DNA of 64,000 nucleotides, from assembly GCA_014377845.1 (NCBI GenBank), contig JACMOV010000150.1, forward strand, positions 18,035 through 82,034. The letters run 5' to 3'. Position numbers and translations under genes: made by a program. Source of the stretch: Herminiimonas sp. Lineage in GTDB: Bacteria > Pseudomonadota > Gammaproteobacteria > Burkholderiales > Burkholderiaceae_D. Shown here piece by piece: positions 31,286-55,557 of the stretch (the first letter of the stretch is position 1; each line of letters opens with the position of its first letter). The notes beneath the pieces were generated by a model. The model was not told the origin of the DNA, did not search any database, and saw nothing but the letters and a program-made list of their open reading frames with translations.

Positions 31286-34066
31286 ATGAACCGCGCAAGA
31301 GATTTAAAGAAAGCAATCCTGCTGAACACGGCATCCGGCATTTTTCTGACCTTGTTTTTAACGGGATGCGGCAAGTCACAAGATACCGCGGCGCTCGTCG
31401 TGGAAGCCGCGCAATACCAGCAAAAGGGTGACAGCAAGGCTGCGATCATCCAGCTCAAGAACGCGCTGCAAAAAGATCCCGAAAACGGCGAGGCGCGATT
31501 TGCGCTGGGCGCTATCTACGCAGATGCAGGCGATGCTCTCGCAGCTGAAAAGGAGCTGCAAAAAGCGGCCTCGCTTGGCGTCAAGAGTGATCGCGTCACA
31601 CCGGTGCTGAGCAAAGTGCTGATGGCGCTCGGAAAATATCAGAAGGTCCTTGAACTAACCGCGCCGACAGCAGGTGTGACCGAGACAGCGGCGACCCTGG
31701 CGCTGCGCGGTGATGCGTTGCTTGCGATCGGCAAACGCGAGGAGGCAAAGGACGCCTTCCAGAAAGCGCTGGACCGGCAGCCGGATTCCAGCGCGGCGCT
31801 TGTCGGGCTGGCAAAGGTTGCCGCAGTCGGTAACGACATGCAAGGCGCGACGCGGTTCATCGACCTCGCCTTGCAGAAGAACACTGCCGATGGCGACGCC
31901 TGGATGTTCAAGGGCGATCTGATGCGCGCGAACGGGCGCCCGGACGAAGCCATCAAGGCATTCGACGAGGCCATCAAGCTGCAACCGGCGAACATCACGC
32001 CCCAGATCGCACGGGCAACGCTAAACATCACGTCAGGCAAATACGCGGAAGCAAAAACCGACATCGACGCAGCACGCAAGAAAAAACCGGCCAGTCTGCT
32101 GATTTTCTACACGCAGGCACTGCTCGACTTCAACCAGGGCAAGAACGCGGAAGCGCTGGCGGGGCTGCAGCAGGTACTGAAATCTGCCCCAGAACACATG
32201 CCGAGCCTGCTTCTGGCAGGCGCGGTGCAATACGCACTCGGCTCGACCGAACAGGCCGAGCAGAATCTGAAAAAATACCTCGCCGCGAACCCGGAAAATC
32301 TGTACGCCCGCAAGCTTTTGGCATCGACGCTTTTGAAAAACGGCAATCTCGACCGCGCCTCCACCGTGATTTCGGATGCACTGAAAGAAGCGCCCCAGGA
32401 TCCGCAACTCTTCATGATCGCGGGCGAATCGGCGCTTCAGAACCGGGACTACGCACGCGCCACGGAATACTTCGAAAAGGCAGGTGCGATCGCGCCGAAA
32501 ATGGCCATCGTGCATACTGCCCTCGGCATGAGCAAGCTCGGTCAGGGCGAGGACGCGAAGGCCGTATCGGAACTCGAACTTGCAGCCGGACTCGATGAGA
32601 AGTCGGCCAAGGCGGGCTCGTTGCTGGTGATGACCCAACTGCGCCTCAAGCAGTACGACAAGGCGTTGGAATCGGTCCTGGCGCTTGAAAAGAAGCAGCC
32701 CAACGATCCGATGGTGCAAAACCTGAAGGGCGGTGTCTACCTCGGCCTCAAGAATCTGCCGATGGCCCGCAGCAGCTTTGAAAAAGCCGTGACGATGACG
32801 CCGACTTATTTCCCCGCAATCGAAAATCTTGCGCGTCTCGATCTGCTGGACCGCCATCCTGAGGCAGCCAAGAAGCGCTTCGAGACTTTGCTGGCAATCG
32901 ACAAGAAAAACGTCGCCGCGATGACCGCTCTGGCTGAACTGGCGCAGGCAAGCGGACAGACCGTGGAAGCGACGACCTGGTTCGAAAAGGCGGCAGCAGA
33001 GAGTCCGGCGGCGTTGCCGCCTTCGCTCCGGCTTGGTACACACTATCTCAAGATCGGCGCCAAGGAAAAGGCACTCGCGCTGGCGCAAAAACTTTACGCT
33101 AGCAACGATATCAACCCGGCCGTGCTGGATTTGCTCGGCCAGAGCCAAGCGGTCAGCAACGACATGCCAGGCGCACTGGCGACGTTCAAGCGACTGGCTT
33201 CATCTGCGCCGAAATCTCCGGCGGCGCAATTGCGCATCGCATCGATTCACGCAAGCACCCAGAATTGGCCCGAGGCCATCGCCGCGCTCAATAATGCGCT
33301 CAAGCTCCAGCCCGACAATCTCGAGGCGCAAGCTGCGCTCGTCAGCGTCTACGAAACCCAGGGCGATTTCGACGCCGCATTGAAAGTGGCGCGTCAAGTA
33401 CAGAAACAACGGCCGAAACAGGCGTTCGGCTACGTGCTGGAAGGCGACATCATGATGGCGCAAAAGAAGCCTGCGCTGGCGCAAAAACCATACGAACAGG
33501 CGCTCGCTACCGGTAACGTCAACTCGGTCATGAGCAAGCTGCATACCGCCATGCTGGCAAGCGGCAAGGCAAAGGAAGCCGACGCACGGATCGCGAAGTA
33601 TCTGCTAGACACGCCTGCGGACATGCAGACGCGGGTCTACTTTGCAAGCAGCCTGTCCGCGCGGCACGATGACAAGGCGGCCATCGAACAATACGAGATC
33701 GTTGCGAAAGCAACACCGCAAAACCCGGCTGTTCTCAACAACCTGGCATACGCATATCAGCAGGAAAAAGATCCGCGGGCGCTCGATACCGCTGAGCGCG
33801 CGTTGAAGCTGGCGCCAACGAACCCGGTGATCATGGATACTCTTGGCTGGATCCTGGTGGAGAGAGGAAACGACGCCCGTGGCCTGGGTTTGCTGCAAAA
33901 AGCGAGCTCCCTGACGCCGGGAGCAAATGATCTGCATCTCCATCTCGCAATCGCCTTGATGAAGGCAGGCGACAAGGTGAATGCGCGCAAGGAGCTGGAG
34001 CAACTCGCGGATTCAAAAACGTATTCGAAGGCCGATGAAGCCCGACGCCTGCTAAAAGAACTTTGA
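31286..34066 (+). CDS. prsT: PEP-CTERM system TPR-repeat lipoprotein
   Basis: PrsT proteins accompany the XrtA/PEP-CTERM exopolysaccharide system and are thought to act as a TPR scaffold in the envelope. The 926-residue protein has a signal peptide with lipobox (LFLTGCGKS, Cys about 28) and then more than 20 TPR units over nearly its full length. Examples are GDSKAAIIQLKNALQKDPENGEARFALG-type 34-residue repeats (core GEARFALGAIYADAGD) and a last unit ending ARRLLKEL. Length and lipobox match the PEP_TPR_lipo family. It is separated from prsK/prsR by 15 kb here, and a sigma-54-like promoter precedes it. Confidence 0.9.
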   Translation: MNRARDLKKAILLNTASGIFLTLFLTGCGKSQDTAALVVEAAQYQQKGDSKAAIIQLKNALQKDPENGEARFALGAIYADAGDALAAEKELQKAASLGVKSDRVTPVLSKVLMALGKYQKVLELTAPTAGVTETAATLALRGDALLAIGKREEAKDAFQKALDRQPDSSAALVGLAKVAAVGNDMQGATRFIDLALQKNTADGDAWMFKGDLMRANGRPDEAIKAFDEAIKLQPANITPQIARATLNITSGKYAEAKTDIDAARKKKPASLLIFYTQALLDFNQGKNAEALAGLQQVLKSAPEHMPSLLLAGAVQYALGSTEQAEQNLKKYLAANPENLYARKLLASTLLKNGNLDRASTVISDALKEAPQDPQLFMIAGESALQNRDYARATEYFEKAGAIAPKMAIVHTALGMSKLGQGEDAKAVSELELAAGLDEKSAKAGSLLVMTQLRLKQYDKALESVLALEKKQPNDPMVQNLKGGVYLGLKNLPMARSSFEKAVTMTPTYFPAIENLARLDLLDRHPEAAKKRFETLLAIDKKNVAAMTALAELAQASGQTVEATTWFEKAAAESPAALPPSLRLGTHYLKIGAKEKALALAQKLYASNDINPAVLDLLGQSQAVSNDMPGALATFKRLASSAPKSPAAQLRIASIHASTQNWPEAIAALNNALKLQPDNLEAQAALVSVYETQGDFDAALKVARQVQKQRPKQAFGYVLEGDIMMAQKKPALAQKPYEQALATGNVNSVMSKLHTAMLASGKAKEADARIAKYLLDTPADMQTRVYFASSLSARHDDKAAIEQYEIVAKATPQNPAVLNNLAYAYQQEKDPRALDTAERALKLAPTNPVIMDTLGWILVERGNDARGLGLLQKASSLTPGANDLHLHLAIALMKAGDKVNARKELEQLADSKTYSKADEARRLLKEL

Positions 34067-37971: not shown

Positions 37972-38946
37972 TTAACTCTGATTCTTCTTGCGGGAAATGC
38001 CGAACAGTCCCAGCAGGCTCAGGCCAAGTCCCAACATTGCCGATGTCGCTGGCTCAGGCACCCGGGTCGGAACGGAAATCGACTCATTTGCATCTGCCTG
38101 CAGCAGGAAATTTGCGCCACCCAGATTCAAGTCACCGTTGACGCTGCCAATCGACGTAGTTGCGTCGATGCCACCGCCAATGCTGCATTTTGACGTGTCG
38201 GTATTGACGCACTTCGATGGATTGACTTGCTTGAACGGATCCACCGCCGAGGTGTTGAAAAACGAAAAAGCAATTGCGGTTGCCAGATCGAGACTCGGGA
38301 AATAGCCGCTGTCGGCGCTATCGATCGTTACCGTCAAGTCGGTCGTGCCGGCGCCGGTCACGGTCTGCTGCGTGCCCCAGTCATTGGCGCCTGCCTGGTC
38401 GAGAAGCACAGGCGTAATGCTGCTCACCTGGAAGTTGCTGGTCGCTTCGCTCGTCACGCGGCCTGACAGAATCAATTTGCCGTCGCCGAAGCCGGCCCCG
38501 GTCAGGTTGTCGCCAGCACTGGTATTTGCGTAGATCTTGAAATAATTGACCGGGTTGGTCGTGTCAAGAGCGAAGGTGGCCGTGCCCGGATAGGGCTGGG
38601 CACTGATGACGTTCTCGCCGAACCCGGCGACGAAGGTAAAGAAATTGCCGCCCGTGCCGTTTGAAAAGAGAATGTCGCCGTTCGTGTTTTGCAGCACCTG
38701 CAGGTTCGCCTGGTAAAACAGCGTGAAGCCGGTGTTGCCAGTGCCATTGGCTGCGGCATTGATCGCGGCAGTACCGCCGAAGGCCAGCGCGCTGCCGGGC
38801 GCCTGGTCGATTGTCGAGACGCCAGAAATATTACCGCCTGCAAGGCCGGTTGGGCTGAATGTGATATCGGTTGCCTGCGCTGCAAGCGGCGCGGCGAGCA
38901 TGAGCGCGATCGCTGATGAAAGAACTGCTTTATTCCTTAATTTCAT
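37972..38946 (-). CDS. PEP-CTERM sorted secreted protein (copy 1)
   Basis: This 324-residue exported protein has a Sec signal peptide (RNKAVLSSAIALMLAAPLAA, cleavage near AQA) and a C-terminal PEP-CTERM signal: VPEPATSAM, a hydrophobic helix and SRKKNQS. Exosortase XrtA should cut at the PEP motif and release or anchor the protein outside. The mature part is Asn/Thr/Gly-rich and beta-like, with a cysteine pair (SKCVNTDTSKC, about 250-260). It has the same length as the neighbouring copy 39375-40349 and clearly shares ancestry. Expression is probably RpoN-dependent. The start has GGAG upstream. Confidence 0.9.
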   Translation of the reverse strand: MKLRNKAVLSSAIALMLAAPLAAQATDITFSPTGLAGGNISGVSTIDQAPGSALAFGGTAAINAAANGTGNTGFTLFYQANLQVLQNTNGDILFSNGTGGNFFTFVAGFGENVISAQPYPGTATFALDTTNPVNYFKIYANTSAGDNLTGAGFGDGKLILSGRVTSEATSNFQVSSITPVLLDQAGANDWGTQQTVTGAGTTDLTVTIDSADSGYFPSLDLATAIAFSFFNTSAVDPFKQVNPSKCVNTDTSKCSIGGGIDATTSIGSVNGDLNLGGANFLLQADANESISVPTRVPEPATSAMLGLGLSLLGLFGISRKKNQS

Positions 38947-39011: not shown

Positions 39012-39116
39012 AGCAGAAAATATGCCAATCGCTATTTTCTTTTAATATCAATGAGTTAGAAGAATTTCTTATAAGAATCTATGAAAAGATCGCACACTAT
39101 GTAAAGCGCCTCGACA
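39012..39116 (-). promoter_or_regulatory. Sigma-54 promoter with IHF site and upstream dyad, PEP-CTERM copy 1
   Basis: On the minus strand TGGCATATTTTCTGCT (39012-39027) has GG and GC exactly ten bases apart. A perfect IHF consensus site (TATCAATGAGTTA on the plus strand, 39046-39058) lies 18 bp upstream. Further up is TGTAAAGCGCCTCGACA (39100-39116), an imperfect palindrome TGTnnAGnnnCTnnACA. The predicted start near 39001 leaves a ~55-nt leader. Order and spacing match copy 2. Confidence 0.8.
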
Positions 39117-39281
39117 TTCAAAATTCCTCACCAAATTACCTGCGGTCATTTTCTTGGCAATCGTCATCTTGCGGGTGAAAACAATCGTCGCGATTAAAAC
39201 GGGCATCGTCGACCGCAATTGATGTACCAGAGCCTGACAAAACGATCGATCACCCGCTCGCTGCATGTCGCAGTCGCAAAC

Positions 39282-39312
39282 AAAAAAGCGAACCGGATCA
39301 GGGTTCGCTTTT
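39282..39312 (-). terminator. Terminator of PEP-CTERM copy 2
   Basis: AAAAGCGAACC (39284-39294) pairs with GGTTCGCTTTT (39302-39312), followed on the minus strand by further T (39282-39283). Confidence 0.88.
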
Positions 39313-39374
39313 GTAGTTGGTACCGGCGCTAGCTTCCCGCCGGAACCGCACCGCTCGTAGAAGCGGCCAGGTAA

Positions 39375-40349
39375 TTACGCCTGGTTTTTCTTGCGGGAGA
39401 TACCGAATGCGCCCAGCAGTGCCAGACCAAGGCCCAGCATTGCGGTGGTTGCCGGCTCTGGCACCCGAGTCGAAAGTGCAACGGACTCGTTCGCGTCAGC
39501 TTGCAGCAGGAAATTCGCGCCGCCCAGGAACAGGTCGCCGTTCACGGTCCCGATCGAGGTCGCAGCATTGATACCGCCGCCAGCGTTACATTTCGATGTG
39601 TCGGTGTTGATGCATTGCGAAGGATCGACTTGTTTGAAAGGATCGACAGCAGACGTGTTGAAGAATGAAAAGGCAACCGAGTTGGCCAGATTGAAGTTCG
39701 GGAAGTAACCTGCGTTCACCATGTCGATCGTCACTGTCAGATCGGTCGTACCTGCACCGGTCACGGTCTTCTGACCGGACCAGTTATCCACGCCAGCCTG
39801 GTCGAGGAGTACGGGTGTGGTACTGCTCACCTGGAAGTTGCTGGTGGCTTCGTTCGTCACGCGACCGGAAAGAATCAATGTACCGACACCAAAACCCGAG
39901 CCAGTCAGGTTGTTACCGCTACTTGTGTTCGCGTAGATCTTGAAGTAGTTGACTGGGTTGGTCGCGTCAAGTGCGAACGTTGCGGTGCCTGGATATGGCT
40001 GGGCACTGACGACCTTCTCGCCGAAACCGGCGATGAAGGTAAAGTAATGGCCATCCGTACCGTTCGAAAACTGAATGCCGCCATTCGTATTTTGCAGAAC
40101 CTGCAGGTTTGCCTGGTAATACAGCGTGAAGCCGGTGTTCGTGCCGCCCGTCGCCGCCGACAGGATGGCTGCCGTACCGCCGACTGCCAATGCACTGCCA
40201 GGCGCCTGATCGATGGTCGATACACCCGTGATGTTACCGGCGGCTGTACCAGTCGGGCTGAACGTAAACTCGGTTGCCTGTGCTGCCAGTGGCGCTGCCA
40301 GCAGTGCCGAGATTGCTACTGCGAGAAATGCTTTCTTGTTCAATTTCAT
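39375..40349 (-). CDS. PEP-CTERM sorted secreted protein (copy 2)
   Basis: This 324-residue paralog of copy 1 has the same plan: signal peptide (NKKAFLAVAISALLAAPLAA), Asn/Thr-rich beta-like mature part, cysteine pair (SQCINTDTSKC), and PEP-CTERM tail VPEPATTAM, helix, SRKKNQA. By eye roughly two thirds to three quarters of residues match copy 1. Its ATG (40349) has GGAG seven bases upstream. It has its own terminator and its own sigma-54 promoter, so the two copies are separately transcribed. Function is unknown. Confidence 0.9.
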   Translation of the reverse strand: MKLNKKAFLAVAISALLAAPLAAQATEFTFSPTGTAAGNITGVSTIDQAPGSALAVGGTAAILSAATGGTNTGFTLYYQANLQVLQNTNGGIQFSNGTDGHYFTFIAGFGEKVVSAQPYPGTATFALDATNPVNYFKIYANTSSGNNLTGSGFGVGTLILSGRVTNEATSNFQVSSTTPVLLDQAGVDNWSGQKTVTGAGTTDLTVTIDMVNAGYFPNFNLANSVAFSFFNTSAVDPFKQVDPSQCINTDTSKCNAGGGINAATSIGTVNGDLFLGGANFLLQADANESVALSTRVPEPATTAMLGLGLALLGAFGISRKKNQA

Positions 40350-40417
40350 GATGTATCTCCGGGGTGTTCGATAAGACTGCGAATTCGAGAATGACTCCTT
40401 CTCAGTGCATGACATAG

Positions 40418-40523
40418 AGCATTAAGTATGCCAACGGAATTAAATTGATTAATATCAATGTGTTATGCCAAACGAAACTATGTTTTTTTAGGAAATAGCA
40501 GGATTGTGTAAAGTTTCCCGACA
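40418..40523 (-). promoter_or_regulatory. Sigma-54 promoter with IHF site and upstream dyad, PEP-CTERM copy 2
   Basis: TGGCATACTTAATGCT (minus strand, 40418-40433) has the GG-N10-GC spacing. A perfect IHF consensus (TATCAATGTGTTA, plus strand, 40453-40465) lies 19 bp upstream, and TGTAAAGTTTCCCGACA (40507-40523) is the matching dyad. The gap from sigma-54 element to dyad is 73 bp, against 72 bp in copy 1. The leader is ~57 nt. Confidence 0.8.
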
Positions 40524-48439: not shown

Positions 48440-49222
48440 TCACTGCGGTTTTTGATCGATCAAGGAACGGATGTGATTGCTCTGGATTGCGTACGTGATA
48501 CCACTCGGCTGACTGATCGCCGTTTCCTTCAAGCCTTTAACAAACACCATGTTGATGATGCCGTATACGACCCCGGAGTCCGTATCATATAGCGGACTGC
48601 CGCTATTTCCCGGATACGCCGTGCCATCGAGCTGAAAGACGCCATACGCGGATTTCTGCAGTTGAACGATCGATTTCGGATCGAGCCGGCTGGAATTGAG
48701 CGCCGGTTTCACAATCGGCGTGATGGATGAAATCATGCCGCGATGGGTCACTTTGGTGAATCCGAGAACCATACCCAGCGGAAAGCCGGTGAACGCCATC
48801 GATTGCCCCTCCTGCACCTGGCTCGAATCACCGATTCGAAGCACTGGCAATGGCGCCCCGGTAATCCGCAGCCGCGCAAGATCATGCTCGCGGTCGGTTG
48901 CGACCACTACGGCGGAGCGGAACTCGGTATTGCCTTCGTTGCCCACGAGAACGCCGAGCGACTCGAGTTGCTCGGTGTTGACCGGATGGGCGACCACGTG
49001 CGCGTTGGTGATGATGGTCAACCCATCATCGACGGCGAAGCCGGTGCCGAAAAAGACGACCGCAGGACTCCGCGTCTTCTGAAAGGTACCGACCGCGACG
49101 ATCGCGGGCTTGATCGCCGTAATCGTGTGCGCCAGGTCGGCGGCGACTGCCGGGACCATCAGGCATGCGGAAGACGACGCAACGGGCATCACGGCCGCAA
49201 CCCCACGGAATCTAGCGCACAT
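48440..49222 (-). CDS. Trypsin-like (S1C-type) serine protease, secreted
   Basis: The 260-residue protein has an N-terminal hydrophobic signal (about 5-28) and a chymotrypsin-fold domain with the full triad: His in ITNAHVV, Asp in REHDLARL and Ser in GNSGSPLYD. No PDZ domain follows, so it is not DegP. Its ATG overlaps the end of prsR by 11 bp, so it is likely made with the PrsK/PrsR pair. Possible roles are processing of envelope or PEP-CTERM proteins, unproven. Confidence 0.85.
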   Translation of the reverse strand: MCARFRGVAAVMPVASSSACLMVPAVAADLAHTITAIKPAIVAVGTFQKTRSPAVVFFGTGFAVDDGLTIITNAHVVAHPVNTEQLESLGVLVGNEGNTEFRSAVVVATDREHDLARLRITGAPLPVLRIGDSSQVQEGQSMAFTGFPLGMVLGFTKVTHRGMISSITPIVKPALNSSRLDPKSIVQLQKSAYGVFQLDGTAYPGNSGSPLYDTDSGVVYGIINMVFVKGLKETAISQPSGITYAIQSNHIRSLIDQKPQ

Positions 49223-50564
49223 TGTGACGCGCCATCAGATCGTATAGTGTCGGCCGGCTGATGCCGAGCAGCTCCGCCGCCTTCGCTACATTACCATCGA
49301 CCCGCGCCAGTGCCTTGACCAGCGCCCGCTGTTCAGCTTCGTCGCGGACCTGACGCAGGTTCAGCGGCTCTTCCTCGGCCGCCGCACCGCTCAAACCGAG
49401 GTCGTCGGCGCCGATTTGCGAACCATCGACCATGATCACTGCGCGCTTGATGCAGTTTTCCATTTCGCGGACGTTGCCTGGCCACTGGTGCGCTTCGATC
49501 TGGGCAAGCGCGTCGGTGCTGAAATTGAGCGCCGACCTGCCCTCTTTCTGGCTAAACTTGTTTTTGAAAAAATGCGCCAGCAAGGCAGCGTCACCAAGGC
49601 GGTCGCGTAATGGCGGGATCGAGATCACGATCTCCGAAAGCCGGTAATAAAGATCCTCACGGAACCTCCCCGCAGCCGCCAGATCCTTCAGATTCTGGTG
49701 CGTTGCGCAGACGATACGCACATCGACCGGGATCTCGGTACGGCCGCCGACCCGTTCGATCACCCGCTCCTGCAGAAAGCGCAGCAGCTTGGCCTGCAGC
49801 GCCATCGGAAGGTCACCGATTTCATCGAGGAAGAAGGTGCCGCCGCTGGCCATCTCGATCTTGCCGACCGTCTGTTTCACCGCGCCGGTGAAGGCACCTT
49901 TTTCGTAGCCGAATAATTCACTTTCGAGCAGGTTTTCAGGAATTGCCGCGCAGTTGATCGCGACAAAGCGCTTGTCGCGGCGCGGGCTGAACTGGTGCAG
50001 CGCACGGGCCAGTACTTCCTTGCCGGTGCCGCTTTCCCCCAGGAGCATGACGCTGGCTGACGACGGCGCGACCTTTTCGATGCTGCGGCAAACCTTGAGC
50101 ATGCCCGGATCGCGGCTGATCAGGCCGGCCACCGGCGAATCGGCCTGATTCTGCATCAGCTGCCGGTTCTTCATCTGCAGTGCATGCAGGTAGAACGCGC
50201 GCTGTACCACCAATGCAAGCACGTCATGGTCGAACGGCTTCTGGTGAAAGTCGTAGGCGCCGAGCCCGATCGCCTTTACGGCATTGTCGTGATCCTGGTT
50301 CCCCGTCAGCACGATGACTTTCGTATCCGGCGCCAGCGCCAGGATCTGCTGCAGCGTGGCGAGGCCTTCGGTTGCGCCATCGGGATCCGGCGGCAGACCA
50401 AGATCCATCGTGACCACTGCCGGTTCATGCCGGCGGATATGCGCCAGCGCGCTTTCGCGATCGCCTGCGACGATCACCTCGTATGAATCGAAACTCCATC
50501 GGAGCTGTTTCTGCAGTCCGGGATCATCTTCGATGATCAGTAATTTCTGTTTATCCTGGGACAC
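49212..50564 (-). CDS. prsR: PEP-CTERM system sigma-54 response regulator
   Basis: PrsR activates RpoN-dependent genes of the PEP-CTERM/exopolysaccharide system. The 450-residue protein has a receiver domain (IIEDDPG, phospho-Asp in [10 protein letters not shown], Lys in QKPFD), an AAA+ domain (Walker [15 protein letters not shown], Walker [10 protein letters not shown]) and a C-terminal Fis-like helix-turn-helix ([19 protein letters not shown]). It lies 18 bp after prsK. The window contains three sigma-54-like promoters, two of them on PEP-CTERM genes, which are its natural candidate targets. Confidence 0.93.
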
Positions 50565-50582: not shown

Positions 50583-52664
50583 TCAGGCCAACTGCCCAAC
50601 CGGTTGTGCGTCGCGCAAGTGCAACGGCAGGATGATGCGAAAGGTCGTGCCGCCCGGCTGCTGGCTCTGCACCTCGATGCGTCCTCCCAATTCCTGGATG
50701 TATTCCCGGCTTTCAAAGACGCCGATTCCCATGCCGGCCGATTTGGTTGATTCGAACGGCTTGAACAGGCGCTCGCGGATGAATTCATCATCCATGCCTG
50801 CGCCGGTGTCCGAGCATTCCACCACGGCTTCGCGATGCCAGCGCAGCAAACGCACAATGACATGTCCTTCCTTCGCTGTCGCCTCGACCGCATTCTGGAT
50901 GATATGGCCGATCACCCGCTCCAGGCGCGCTGGATCGGCCACCACCATCAGATCGGCATCGATGATCTCGAGTTGCGGCTTGGGCTCGGCGCCCGACTTG
51001 ATCGCGATGGCCTGTCTCAGCAGTTTATCGATATGAAGCCGGCCTGGCGATTCGATTGCCGAGCCGCGGGCGAGCTTGTGTAGCAGCAGACGCATCTTCT
51101 GGACCGACAGATCGACCGTTTCCAGCATGTCGCGCTGAAATTCCGGGTTGTCCTTGTGCCTTTCTGCGTTGGCCACAAGCAGTGATAATTGCGAGACCAG
51201 ATTCTTCAGGTCGTGGACGATGAAGGTCGACATCCGGTTGAAGGATTCGAACTGGCGCGCCACCATCAGCGCATTGGCAGATTCCTGCTGAGCCAGATAA
51301 CTGGCGGCCTGGCTGCCGGCAATCTTGAGCAGGTCAGTGACTTCCCAGTTGAGGACGATCCGGCTGCGCGCCCGTGCCAGCACGACGAAGCCGCACAGGT
51401 CATTGCTCAGGATGAGCGGCACGACCAGCCAGGCATCGGCTACTTGTTCCAGCCAGGCCGGCAACGTCATCCCGTCGTAACGCTCGGGCGCCTCACGGTA
51501 GTCGTGCAGATCGACCACCCACTGCCGGGTTTTCAGAAAGTGACAGAAGGCAGAGTCGACCGGCTCCACGTCGTCCCCTACTTGCATGTTCCAGCGCGAT
51601 ACCAGTTCGCAATTGCCAGACTCCCGGGACAGATAGAGCACTCCCCCTGGACTTTCGACCAGGTTGGCCACCGCCTGGATGGCGCGTTCCGTAATTTGCG
51701 GACCGCCTTCGGATAACGTCTTGGTGAATCGCAGCCACTCTTCGCGATAATCGTAGTTGTAGCTGTAAAAATGTTTGCTGATGAACACCCGCAGCCACGA
51801 CCGGAACGTGCCGGAAAACAGGACGGCAAACAGCAACGCTACCGCACCGGCAAGGAAGGTGCCCTGCATGACAGCGCCCCAGGTACCGCCAAAGTAACGC
51901 AGGTAGTAGCCCGCCCCCGCCATCGCCAGCAAATAGATGGCCGAGCCGAACAGGGTCACCGAGTGGAACAGCGCCTGGCGCGACACGGAGATACCGAGCG
52001 ACCACTTGGGATTGCGGGCAGCAGACAGCGCGATCAGCGGTGCCGTCAACGCATTGATCGCGCCACGGGCGATCCAGATTTCCGGGTTCACGAGACGAAA
52101 CAGCATGGCGTCGCTGTAAAGGTAAAAATCATAGGCGAACAAGCCGCCGACGCCCATGCAGGCAAACTTGATACCCCAGCGCTCGCGAACCGGGGCGTTC
52201 CGGTAGAGTTGCTCCACCAGCAGCATGCCAACGACCGCAAGGGCCACCTTGCCCAGGATTCCAGGCACAACCACCGGAACCTCGTCGATACTGACGCCTT
52301 GCAGGTAGGCATACAAGGTTGCCGCAAACAGGGCGCCGTATAGCAGGGCAATCGCGATGACCGAGGGCTTCAGGTTGCCAATACGGGGCGGCGTATCTGT
52401 CTTGAAGGCGCCGAGCAGCTTGACCAGCAACAGCGTCCAGCCGGCATCGCGCCCAAGCTCAAGCAGTTCGCCCGCCAGCGAAATGGGGGCGCCCGAGAGG
52501 GTTTCGAAGGCGACGACTGTCGCCCATGCCGTTGTCAGTAAAGACGCGGCGGTCGTGACCTTGGCGTGCGTGTTGGATTTCCAGCGCGTCAGCAGCAGGA
52601 TCGTCAACAGCAGGAACGCTGCGGCGCAAAACGCATGGCTGTAAAACGCAATTCCGATCAACAT
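50583..52664 (-). CDS. prsK: PEP-CTERM system sensor histidine kinase
   Basis: PrsK is the partner kinase of PrsR. The 693-residue protein has an N-terminal membrane domain of about eight or nine helices (residues 1-295), a GAF-like domain (about 330-470), and a kinase core. The core shows the H-box STFIVHDLKNLVSQLS, N-box IGHIIQNAVEA, G1 DTGAGMDDEF and G2 GMGIGVFESREY. Its upstream neighbour is the priming sugar transferase, 74 bp away on the same strand. The signal is unknown. Confidence 0.93.
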   Translation of the reverse strand: MLIGIAFYSHAFCAAAFLLLTILLLTRWKSNTHAKVTTAASLLTTAWATVVAFETLSGAPISLAGELLELGRDAGWTLLLVKLLGAFKTDTPPRIGNLKPSVIAIALLYGALFAATLYAYLQGVSIDEVPVVVPGILGKVALAVVGMLLVEQLYRNAPVRERWGIKFACMGVGGLFAYDFYLYSDAMLFRLVNPEIWIARGAINALTAPLIALSAARNPKWSLGISVSRQALFHSVTLFGSAIYLLAMAGAGYYLRYFGGTWGAVMQGTFLAGAVALLFAVLFSGTFRSWLRVFISKHFYSYNYDYREEWLRFTKTLSEGGPQITERAIQAVANLVESPGGVLYLSRESGNCELVSRWNMQVGDDVEPVDSAFCHFLKTRQWVVDLHDYREAPERYDGMTLPAWLEQVADAWLVVPLILSNDLCGFVVLARARSRIVLNWEVTDLLKIAGSQAASYLAQQESANALMVARQFESFNRMSTFIVHDLKNLVSQLSLLVANAERHKDNPEFQRDMLETVDLSVQKMRLLLHKLARGSAIESPGRLHIDKLLRQAIAIKSGAEPKPQLEIIDADLMVVADPARLERVIGHIIQNAVEATAKEGHVIVRLLRWHREAVVECSDTGAGMDDEFIRERLFKPFESTKSAGMGIGVFESREYIQELGGRIEVQSQQPGGTTFRIILPLHLRDAQPVGQLA

Positions 52665-55106: not shown

Positions 55107-55557
55107 TGGAGTTTCCCTTTACCGTGGTAAATCGTGGAATGTTTAAATTAACACAACAAAATGTCTTTGTATTCTAATCAATCAATTAGTATCAGAACGT
55201 AAACAAACGTGTCTTTGTCACCCCAAGGATGTTGCCCTATTTTATACTAGGCGCGCCTTTAAAAACTTGTTAAACTGACATTGCTATTTTACAAGCAAAT
55301 ATTACGTTTTGGGGCCAGTTTAGCCGGTGCAAGGTAGCTTTAACGCGCATTTGTGTGGAGAATGCAGGCCAGCCATTTAACAGTTCGCGGTGATGTTGCA
55401 AAATAGAAATAATTACTGGTGCGCTTAGCAGGTTCACCTGTTTCCGCGGCGTTGTGCGGTACAGTACATTTCTTCAGCGCCCGCATAGGGATGTTGAAAC
55501 ATCGGACATATACCTGAGCGGTACATGCCGGATTAAATTCATGGAAAGTGACACACG
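55107..55557. other. Divergent region export lipoprotein / chain-length gene (451 bp)
   Basis: This is an AT-rich divergent promoter region. It has a perfect IHF consensus site (AATCAATCAATTA, 55176-55188), two copies of TGTCTTTGT (55162-55170 and 55210-55218) on either side of it, and a weak sigma-54-like sequence with correct spacing (55309-55325). Promoter assignment is not firm. No gene is seen. Confidence 0.6.

Follow-up and report, generated by a model that had tools for sequence, protein, structure and literature searches.

The window considered here, a 64,000-nt stretch of a Herminiimonas sp. genome, codes for two PEP-CTERM proteins (PEP1 and PEP2), each preceded by a compound upstream region, together with the PrsK, PrsR and PrsT proteins, EpsB2 (TIGR03013) and an exopolysaccharide export protein. 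The features that bear on the argument are:

31286..34066, plus strand: PrsT, a TPR protein (TIGR02917, 888.8 bits, cut-off 312.2)
37972..38946, minus strand: PEP1, PEP-CTERM protein of 324 aa, paralog of PEP2 (TIGR02595, 22.3 bits, cut-off 16)
39012..39027, minus strand: sigma-54 -24/-12 element of PEP1, GG-N10-GC, TGGCATATTTTCTGCT, also given as TGGCATATTTTCTGC
39046..39058, minus strand: IHF consensus site of PEP1, exact, TAACTCATTGATA on the minus strand, centre 25 bp upstream of TGGC
39100..39116, minus strand: predicted PrsR box (motif 1 of Haft et al.) of PEP1, TGTCGAGGCGCTTTACA
39284..39312, minus strand: intrinsic-terminator-like hairpin between PEP2 and the PEP1 promoter
39375..40349, minus strand: PEP2, PEP-CTERM protein of 324 aa (TIGR02595, 23.4 bits, cut-off 16)
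40418..40433, minus strand: sigma-54 -24/-12 element of PEP2, GG-N10-GC, TGGCATACTTAATGCT, also given as TGGCATACTTAATGC
40453..40465, minus strand: IHF consensus site of PEP2, exact, TAACACATTGATA on the minus strand, centre 26 bp upstream of TGGC
40507..40523, minus strand: predicted PrsR box (motif 1 of Haft et al.) of PEP2, 17 nt ending TTTACA, TGTCGGGAAACTTTACA
49212..50564, minus strand: PrsR, NtrC-type response regulator, the predicted box binder (TIGR02915, 768 bits, cut-off 502.6)
50583..52664, minus strand: PrsK sensor histidine kinase (TIGR02916, 838.7 bits, cut-off 300)
55106-54474, minus strand: XrtA-system exopolysaccharide export gene (TIGR03027, 244 bits)

In both promoters the elements follow each other from 5' to 3' as a 17-bp box, an exact IHF consensus (pattern used: WATCAANNNNTTR) and a sigma-54 site, with 72 bp (PEP1) and 73 bp (PEP2) between box and sigma-54 site and 18 bp and 19 bp, respectively, between IHF site and sigma-54 site. 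An earlier note on this DNA had placed the sigma-54 sites, the IHF sites and the dyads at these positions, all on the minus strand, and proves correct to the base; its placing of a PrsR gene in the same window is likewise borne out by the TIGR02915 score given above. RpoN, IhfA and IhfB are encoded elsewhere in the genome. The hairpin between PEP2 and the PEP1 promoter fits a terminator by position and is weak on statistics, the terminator-like sites in the scanned region being not above chance (2 versus 3.5 in shuffles).

The pairing of box and sigma-54 site is already published as motif 1 and motif 2 of Haft et al. 2006 (PMC1569441). According to the available part of that paper, motif 1 comprises 17 nt ending in TTTACA and is followed by a spacer (mean 62.8, SD 10.6, range 32–92) and then by the sigma-54 motif 2; the pair precedes 99 of 167 proteobacterial PEP-CTERM genes, and PrsR was proposed as the binder of motif 1 from phylogenetic profiles matching PrsR, PrsK and PrsT. 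The window promoters are alike in these respects: a 17-nt box ending TTTACA (length and ending being compared with the text description), gaps of 72 and 73 within 32–92 nt, a GG/GC sigma-54 motif thereafter, and a location before PEP-CTERM genes with long upstream non-coding DNA (by ORF coordinates 428 nt for PEP1 and about 255 nt for PEP2), in a genome that codes for PrsK, PrsR and PrsT, all above curated cut-offs. The candidate PrsR site of the earlier note is a rediscovery, the pair not having been identified there as the published motif.

Within its own genome the arrangement is rare. The dyad pattern (TGTNNNGNNNNTTTACA) has exactly two matches in the 3.36-Mb draft, both at these promoters (reversed control, 1). 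In the window, the exact IHF consensus occurs four times against 0.73 expected, and the sigma-54 pattern four times against 1.55 expected, which is weak alone; two of the four are in each case those of the PEP1 and PEP2 promoters. A search of the genome with the box allowed three mismatches gave 308 matches versus 304 for the reversed control and is uninformative as a count.

The layout recurs well outside this genome. Other promoters were gathered with a strict box and a strict sigma-54 pattern, weak boxes lying outside the scope of the set, and with gaps of 48–78 allowed in the scans of the window's family and of a genome collection and 42–72 in the class scan. The family scan gave 40 matches in 37 of 393 genomes (two of the matches and one of the genomes being the window's own; reversed-pattern control, 2), the class scan found the pattern in 8 of 369 genomes, its own included (control, 0), and the collection scan yielded at least 118 loci. 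The retrieved loci hold 157 matches, which reduce to 139 non-redundant promoters once 18 near-duplicates are removed. Clade labels were assigned from record titles, given for 80 of the 118 collection loci listed, and 38 non-redundant sites, from untitled collection loci and the class scan, are unlabelled. Two same-family genomes have exactly the promoter sequences of Massilia sp. ZL223 (L070/L075) and Noviherbaspirillum soli (L048/L119), and the window's family is thus taken as the one holding these genera. A PEP-CTERM-like tail is found in the gene behind 77 of the 139 non-redundant sites, as against 1 of 78 in an antisense control confined to loci with more than 1500 nt; the tail rule found no such gene at 62 of the 139, some loci being truncated. 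The earlier note had named absence of the dyad before the PEP-CTERM genes of close relatives as evidence against its proposal; at the family level and beyond, the box is present before such genes. The closest relatives give no test, since the congeners G004 and G047 have neither a strict promoter nor a homolog of the window genes at E<=1e-20, and a protein ortholog search over 61 genomes (own included) returned just the two window genes.

Across the 139 promoters the gap between box and promoter is quantised near 52, 63 and 74 bp. In a stricter set of 120 the means are 52.0 (SD 1.3, n=23), 63.4 (SD 1.2, n=79) and 74.2 (SD 1.1, n=17), with one gap at 82; by bins chosen after the data were seen, 111 of these gaps lie in peaks, one in troughs and eight between. 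With a period of 11 bp the set of 139 has a resultant length of 0.76, whereas 20,000 draws of either null never exceeded 0.29. The window promoters (72 and 73 bp) fall in the 74 group. Of the 40 family matches, ten lack a separate locus; one of these, from the window, is covered by L043, and for the other nine, left unretrieved under those entries, the coordinates give gaps of 62–63, in phase. A whole-turn rule predicts the next step near 85, and a search of gaps 79–108 made afterwards as a test, in 62 genomes of one genus, returned four matches at 84, 84, 84 and 85, two of the four being apparently homologous; no match with a gap of 18–47 turned up in 62 genomes. The polarity of the box also appears fixed: a mirrored box occurs in 0 of 62 genomes of one genus, as against 16 family-scan matches to the forward box in the same genus; 14 of these match with the strictness used for the mirrored pattern, and some come from near relatives. 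Box-to-promoter distance in whole helical turns is a geometry apparently undescribed in print and was tested in this comparison. The available text of Haft et al. (logos apart) contains none of 'ihf', 'phase', 'periodic' or 'turn of', and has 'helical' and 'bend' in reference titles alone; among titles and abstracts of the open-licence literature, no paper was found on the geometry of promoters with a PrsR box and a sigma-54 site. The gap of 82 comes from a locus (L158) in which a single promoter is preceded by a tandem pair of PrsR boxes, at 82 and 50 bp from TGGC; the pair resembles the repeated motif 1 noted by Haft et al. in R. rubrum (PMC1569441).

The spacers of this set are enriched in the IHF consensus. 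Leaving aside the window promoters (137 spacers, either strand counted), the exact consensus is present in 26, as compared with 0.72 in shuffles and 2 in equal lengths upstream of the box, and a match with at most one mismatch in 61, as compared with 12.3 in shuffles, 13 in the upstream control and 25 for the best of 150 permuted consensus strings. By group, such matches with at most one mismatch are found in 21 of 23 same-family PEP-CTERM promoters (11 exact; shuffles 2.2, upstream control 0), in 20 of 52 PEP-CTERM promoters outside the family (shuffles 5.6, upstream control 5) and in 18 of 59 other promoters outside the family (shuffles 4.3, upstream control 8). Outside the family, then, the consensus is above chance and present in a minority of promoters; it is far from universal, and IHF may be optional or replaced by other bends. 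The position of the consensus is biased as well: of the 56 matches with at most one mismatch in the main orientation (YAANNNNTTGATW), 35, among them the window's two, have their centre 25–26 bp upstream of TGGC, and 21 lie elsewhere. The 25–26 position is kept in all three gap classes, which ties the site to the promoter and not to the box. A further 27 matches are in the opposite orientation, 15 of these at 13–15, and among the four promoters with gaps of 84–85 bp the site stands in the main orientation at 36–37 in two and reversed at 24 in one, and is absent in one. In the 63-bp class most of the informative spacer columns (-31, -30, -24, -23, -21 and -20) fall on specified bases of a consensus site centred at 25 or 26. 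An extra GT in the spacer element (AAGTNN) was also considered and is unsupported by column information.

Taken together, we put at roughly 0.8 the probability that both promoters are sigma-54-dependent members of the PrsK-PrsR regulon, combining a PrsR box, an IHF bend and RpoN, as judged from predicted sites. In such a system PrsK would phosphorylate PrsR, and the phosphorylated regulator would bind the asymmetric 17-bp box with one set polarity, from a single face of the helix. IHF, bound at a set place between box and promoter, would bend the DNA and let the PrsR ATPase touch the RpoN-polymerase at -24/-12, whereupon PrsR would melt the promoter and each PEP-CTERM gene would be transcribed. 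Occupancy of the predicted sites by PrsR and IHF in this organism, and a need for bending, we infer from the sequence; earlier work on other organisms supports both the dependence on RpoN and the binding of a PrsR-type regulator to PEP-CTERM targets. Rajeev et al. 2011 (PMC3333781) report that the five PEP-CTERM targets predicted for DVUA0057 of D. vulgaris were enriched in DAP-chip, a regulon like the present one in that its regulator was predicted to control PEP-CTERM genes; the available part of that study differs in having neither a validated binding-site motif nor a spacing analysis. In Zoogloea, RpoN and PrsK-PrsR control a PEP-CTERM gene (as cited in PMC9012009). In Aquincola tertiaricarbonis the PEP-CTERM gene pepA depends on RpoN1; its start is mapped, and it has TGGCAC/CTGCTT elements and, upstream of them, the predicted enhancer (PMC9850573). 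It differs from the window promoters in gene and organism, and 'IHF' is absent from the available text. These studies of Desulfovibrio, Zoogloea and Aquincola agree with control by PrsR and RpoN.

Several alternatives have to be set against this. The likeness of the two promoters might be a mere leftover of tandem duplication, with the sigma-54 site alone mattering. PEP1 and PEP2 are indeed paralogs with 79% protein identity, and common descent contributes; the pair is old, to judge from the 54% identity at third codon positions, and between box and promoter 30 of 31 element columns are identical against 40 of 84 other columns (gaps counted as differences). The assertion of the earlier note that the conservation is not mere copy identity thus holds, and with the same layout recurring in other genomes over different spacers, duplication is a very improbable explanation. 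Equally far-fetched is the idea that ordinary sigma-70 promoters drive the two genes: the one match, of 9/12 at 39105-39076 on the minus strand and overlapping the PEP1 box, compares with 1.6 expected, and there is none before PEP2.

More weight attaches to the proposal that box and sigma-54 site act as described and that the TTGATW element between them is bound by some protein other than IHF or is simply an intrinsic bend. Among non-family promoters a minority have the element, informative spacer columns also lie outside the IHF core (-16 and -9), and the spacers are richer in AT (0.55) than the upstream DNA (0.45), though little above the downstream DNA (0.52). Against this, most of the informative columns of the 63-bp class coincide with specified bases of the consensus, permuted strings reach at most 25 matches versus 61 for the true one, and both IHF subunits are encoded; we regard a binder or bend other than IHF as unlikely, albeit a serious contender. 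The box might also be bound by an NtrC-type activator other than PrsR, the binding of PrsR to it here being a prediction from sequence; a few of the DVUA0057 targets in D. vulgaris are also targets of two other regulators (PMC3333781). The phylogenetic profile of the motif described by Haft et al. nevertheless matches PrsR, PrsK and PrsT, and prsR mutants of Zoogloea lose flocculation (as cited in PMC9012009), which makes another activator distinctly improbable. An RpoN promoter with an IHF bend and a PrsR box, as the earlier note had read the locus, hence stands as the best-supported reading, its idea of a PrsR box being prior art (PMC1569441). A parallel might be struck with the IHF-assisted sigma-54 promoters reviewed in PMC7057263, such as the NifA-activated operons and Pu of P. 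putida, which likewise have an activator upstream, IHF-helped looping and sigma-54 downstream; both window promoters have the exact IHF consensus between activator box and -24. What sets the present promoters apart is that one layout is repeated throughout a regulon, in which the IHF site has a favoured position and the activator site lies whole helical turns away.

At Erythrobacter- and Porphyrobacter-type loci, and at some untitled ones, a promoter with PrsR box and sigma-54 site (gap 63–65) stands before some 110 nt of conserved sequence containing two hairpins, a terminator and repeated TGGTC (e.g., L106:1350-1479, minus strand, plus 15 other loci); two or more TGGTC in the first 160 nt are found behind 16 of the 157 matches (near-duplicates kept). 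In 15 aligned sequences of this candidate small RNA, 7 of 30 predicted pairs show pair-keeping changes on both sides, six of them in the terminator stem; some covarying pairs rest on one poorly aligned row (L096), and the firmest rest on four and seven sequences. The best match of one member in an Rfam scan is ar14 at 30.9 bits, below the cut-off of 58.8, and no paper on a sphingomonad small RNA with sigma-54 or PEP-CTERM was found in the open-licence literature. Of the 16 loci, 14 have a convergent ORF with a glutaredoxin motif at 157–405 nt behind the promoter, the other two being short on sequence, and both of the two such ORFs that were tested are of the Grx4 type, above cut-off (TIGR00365).

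These patterns lead us to favour, with some reserve, a joint reading in which a rule holds across Proteobacteria: an asymmetric box of fixed polarity lies 52, 63, 74 or 84 bp from the -24 element, the activator thus being set off in whole turns only; an IHF bend is preferred 25–26 bp upstream, most strongly in the Massilia/Noviherbaspirillum family; and in some Alphaproteobacteria the regulon also drives a conserved small RNA that ends in a terminator and converges on the gene of a Grx4-type glutaredoxin. If this is true, the PrsR regulon reaches past PEP-CTERM genes, the gathered sites including non-PEP-CTERM targets, one of them the candidate small RNA. Whole-turn quantisation in four steps across diverse genomes may be seen as a natural experiment on the short-range access of a sigma-54 activator to polymerase, and box, permitted gap, IHF site and GG-N10-GC together offer a sharper rule for searching PrsR regulons. 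Since activated-sludge bacteria require PEP-CTERM proteins to form flocs (PMC9850573, PMC9012009), the promoter switch is also of practical interest.

Elsewhere in the Herminiimonas sp. genome, a pattern with gap 40–70, which misses the window promoters because their gaps are 72–73, gave eight matches (reversed control, 7). Among them is a promoter on C137 (L015, 1517-1422, minus strand) with one mismatch in the box, a gap of 63, the element TGGCGTAAAAATTGCA and an IHF site with one mismatch at 26; it stands close to a tRNA-Pro gene and ahead of an 84-aa ORF that lacks a PEP-CTERM tail. TIGR02595 is over its cut-off at four places in the genome, barely so at the fourth (C121, 17.1 bits), before which inspection by eye found no clear PrsR-type promoter. 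The remaining candidate, on C162, has a degraded box (four mismatches), a gap of 61 and AGGCACATTTTTTGC, with an IHF-like site of two mismatches at 25 and a better match at 8. In the window, a weak box-like match (55142-55158) and an exact IHF match (55176-55188) lie just upstream of the exopolysaccharide export gene; the region 55142-55188 was set aside, inspection by eye having revealed no convincing sigma-54 site there. A shared hairpin in the 5' leaders with GGA in its loop, a possible CsrA site, was likewise rejected, the PEP1 leader folding well (z -4.1) and that of PEP2 not (z +1.3). The leaders of PEP1 and PEP2 do share GAGAAGGA near the expected RNA start (38998-38983 and 40403-40387, minus strand).
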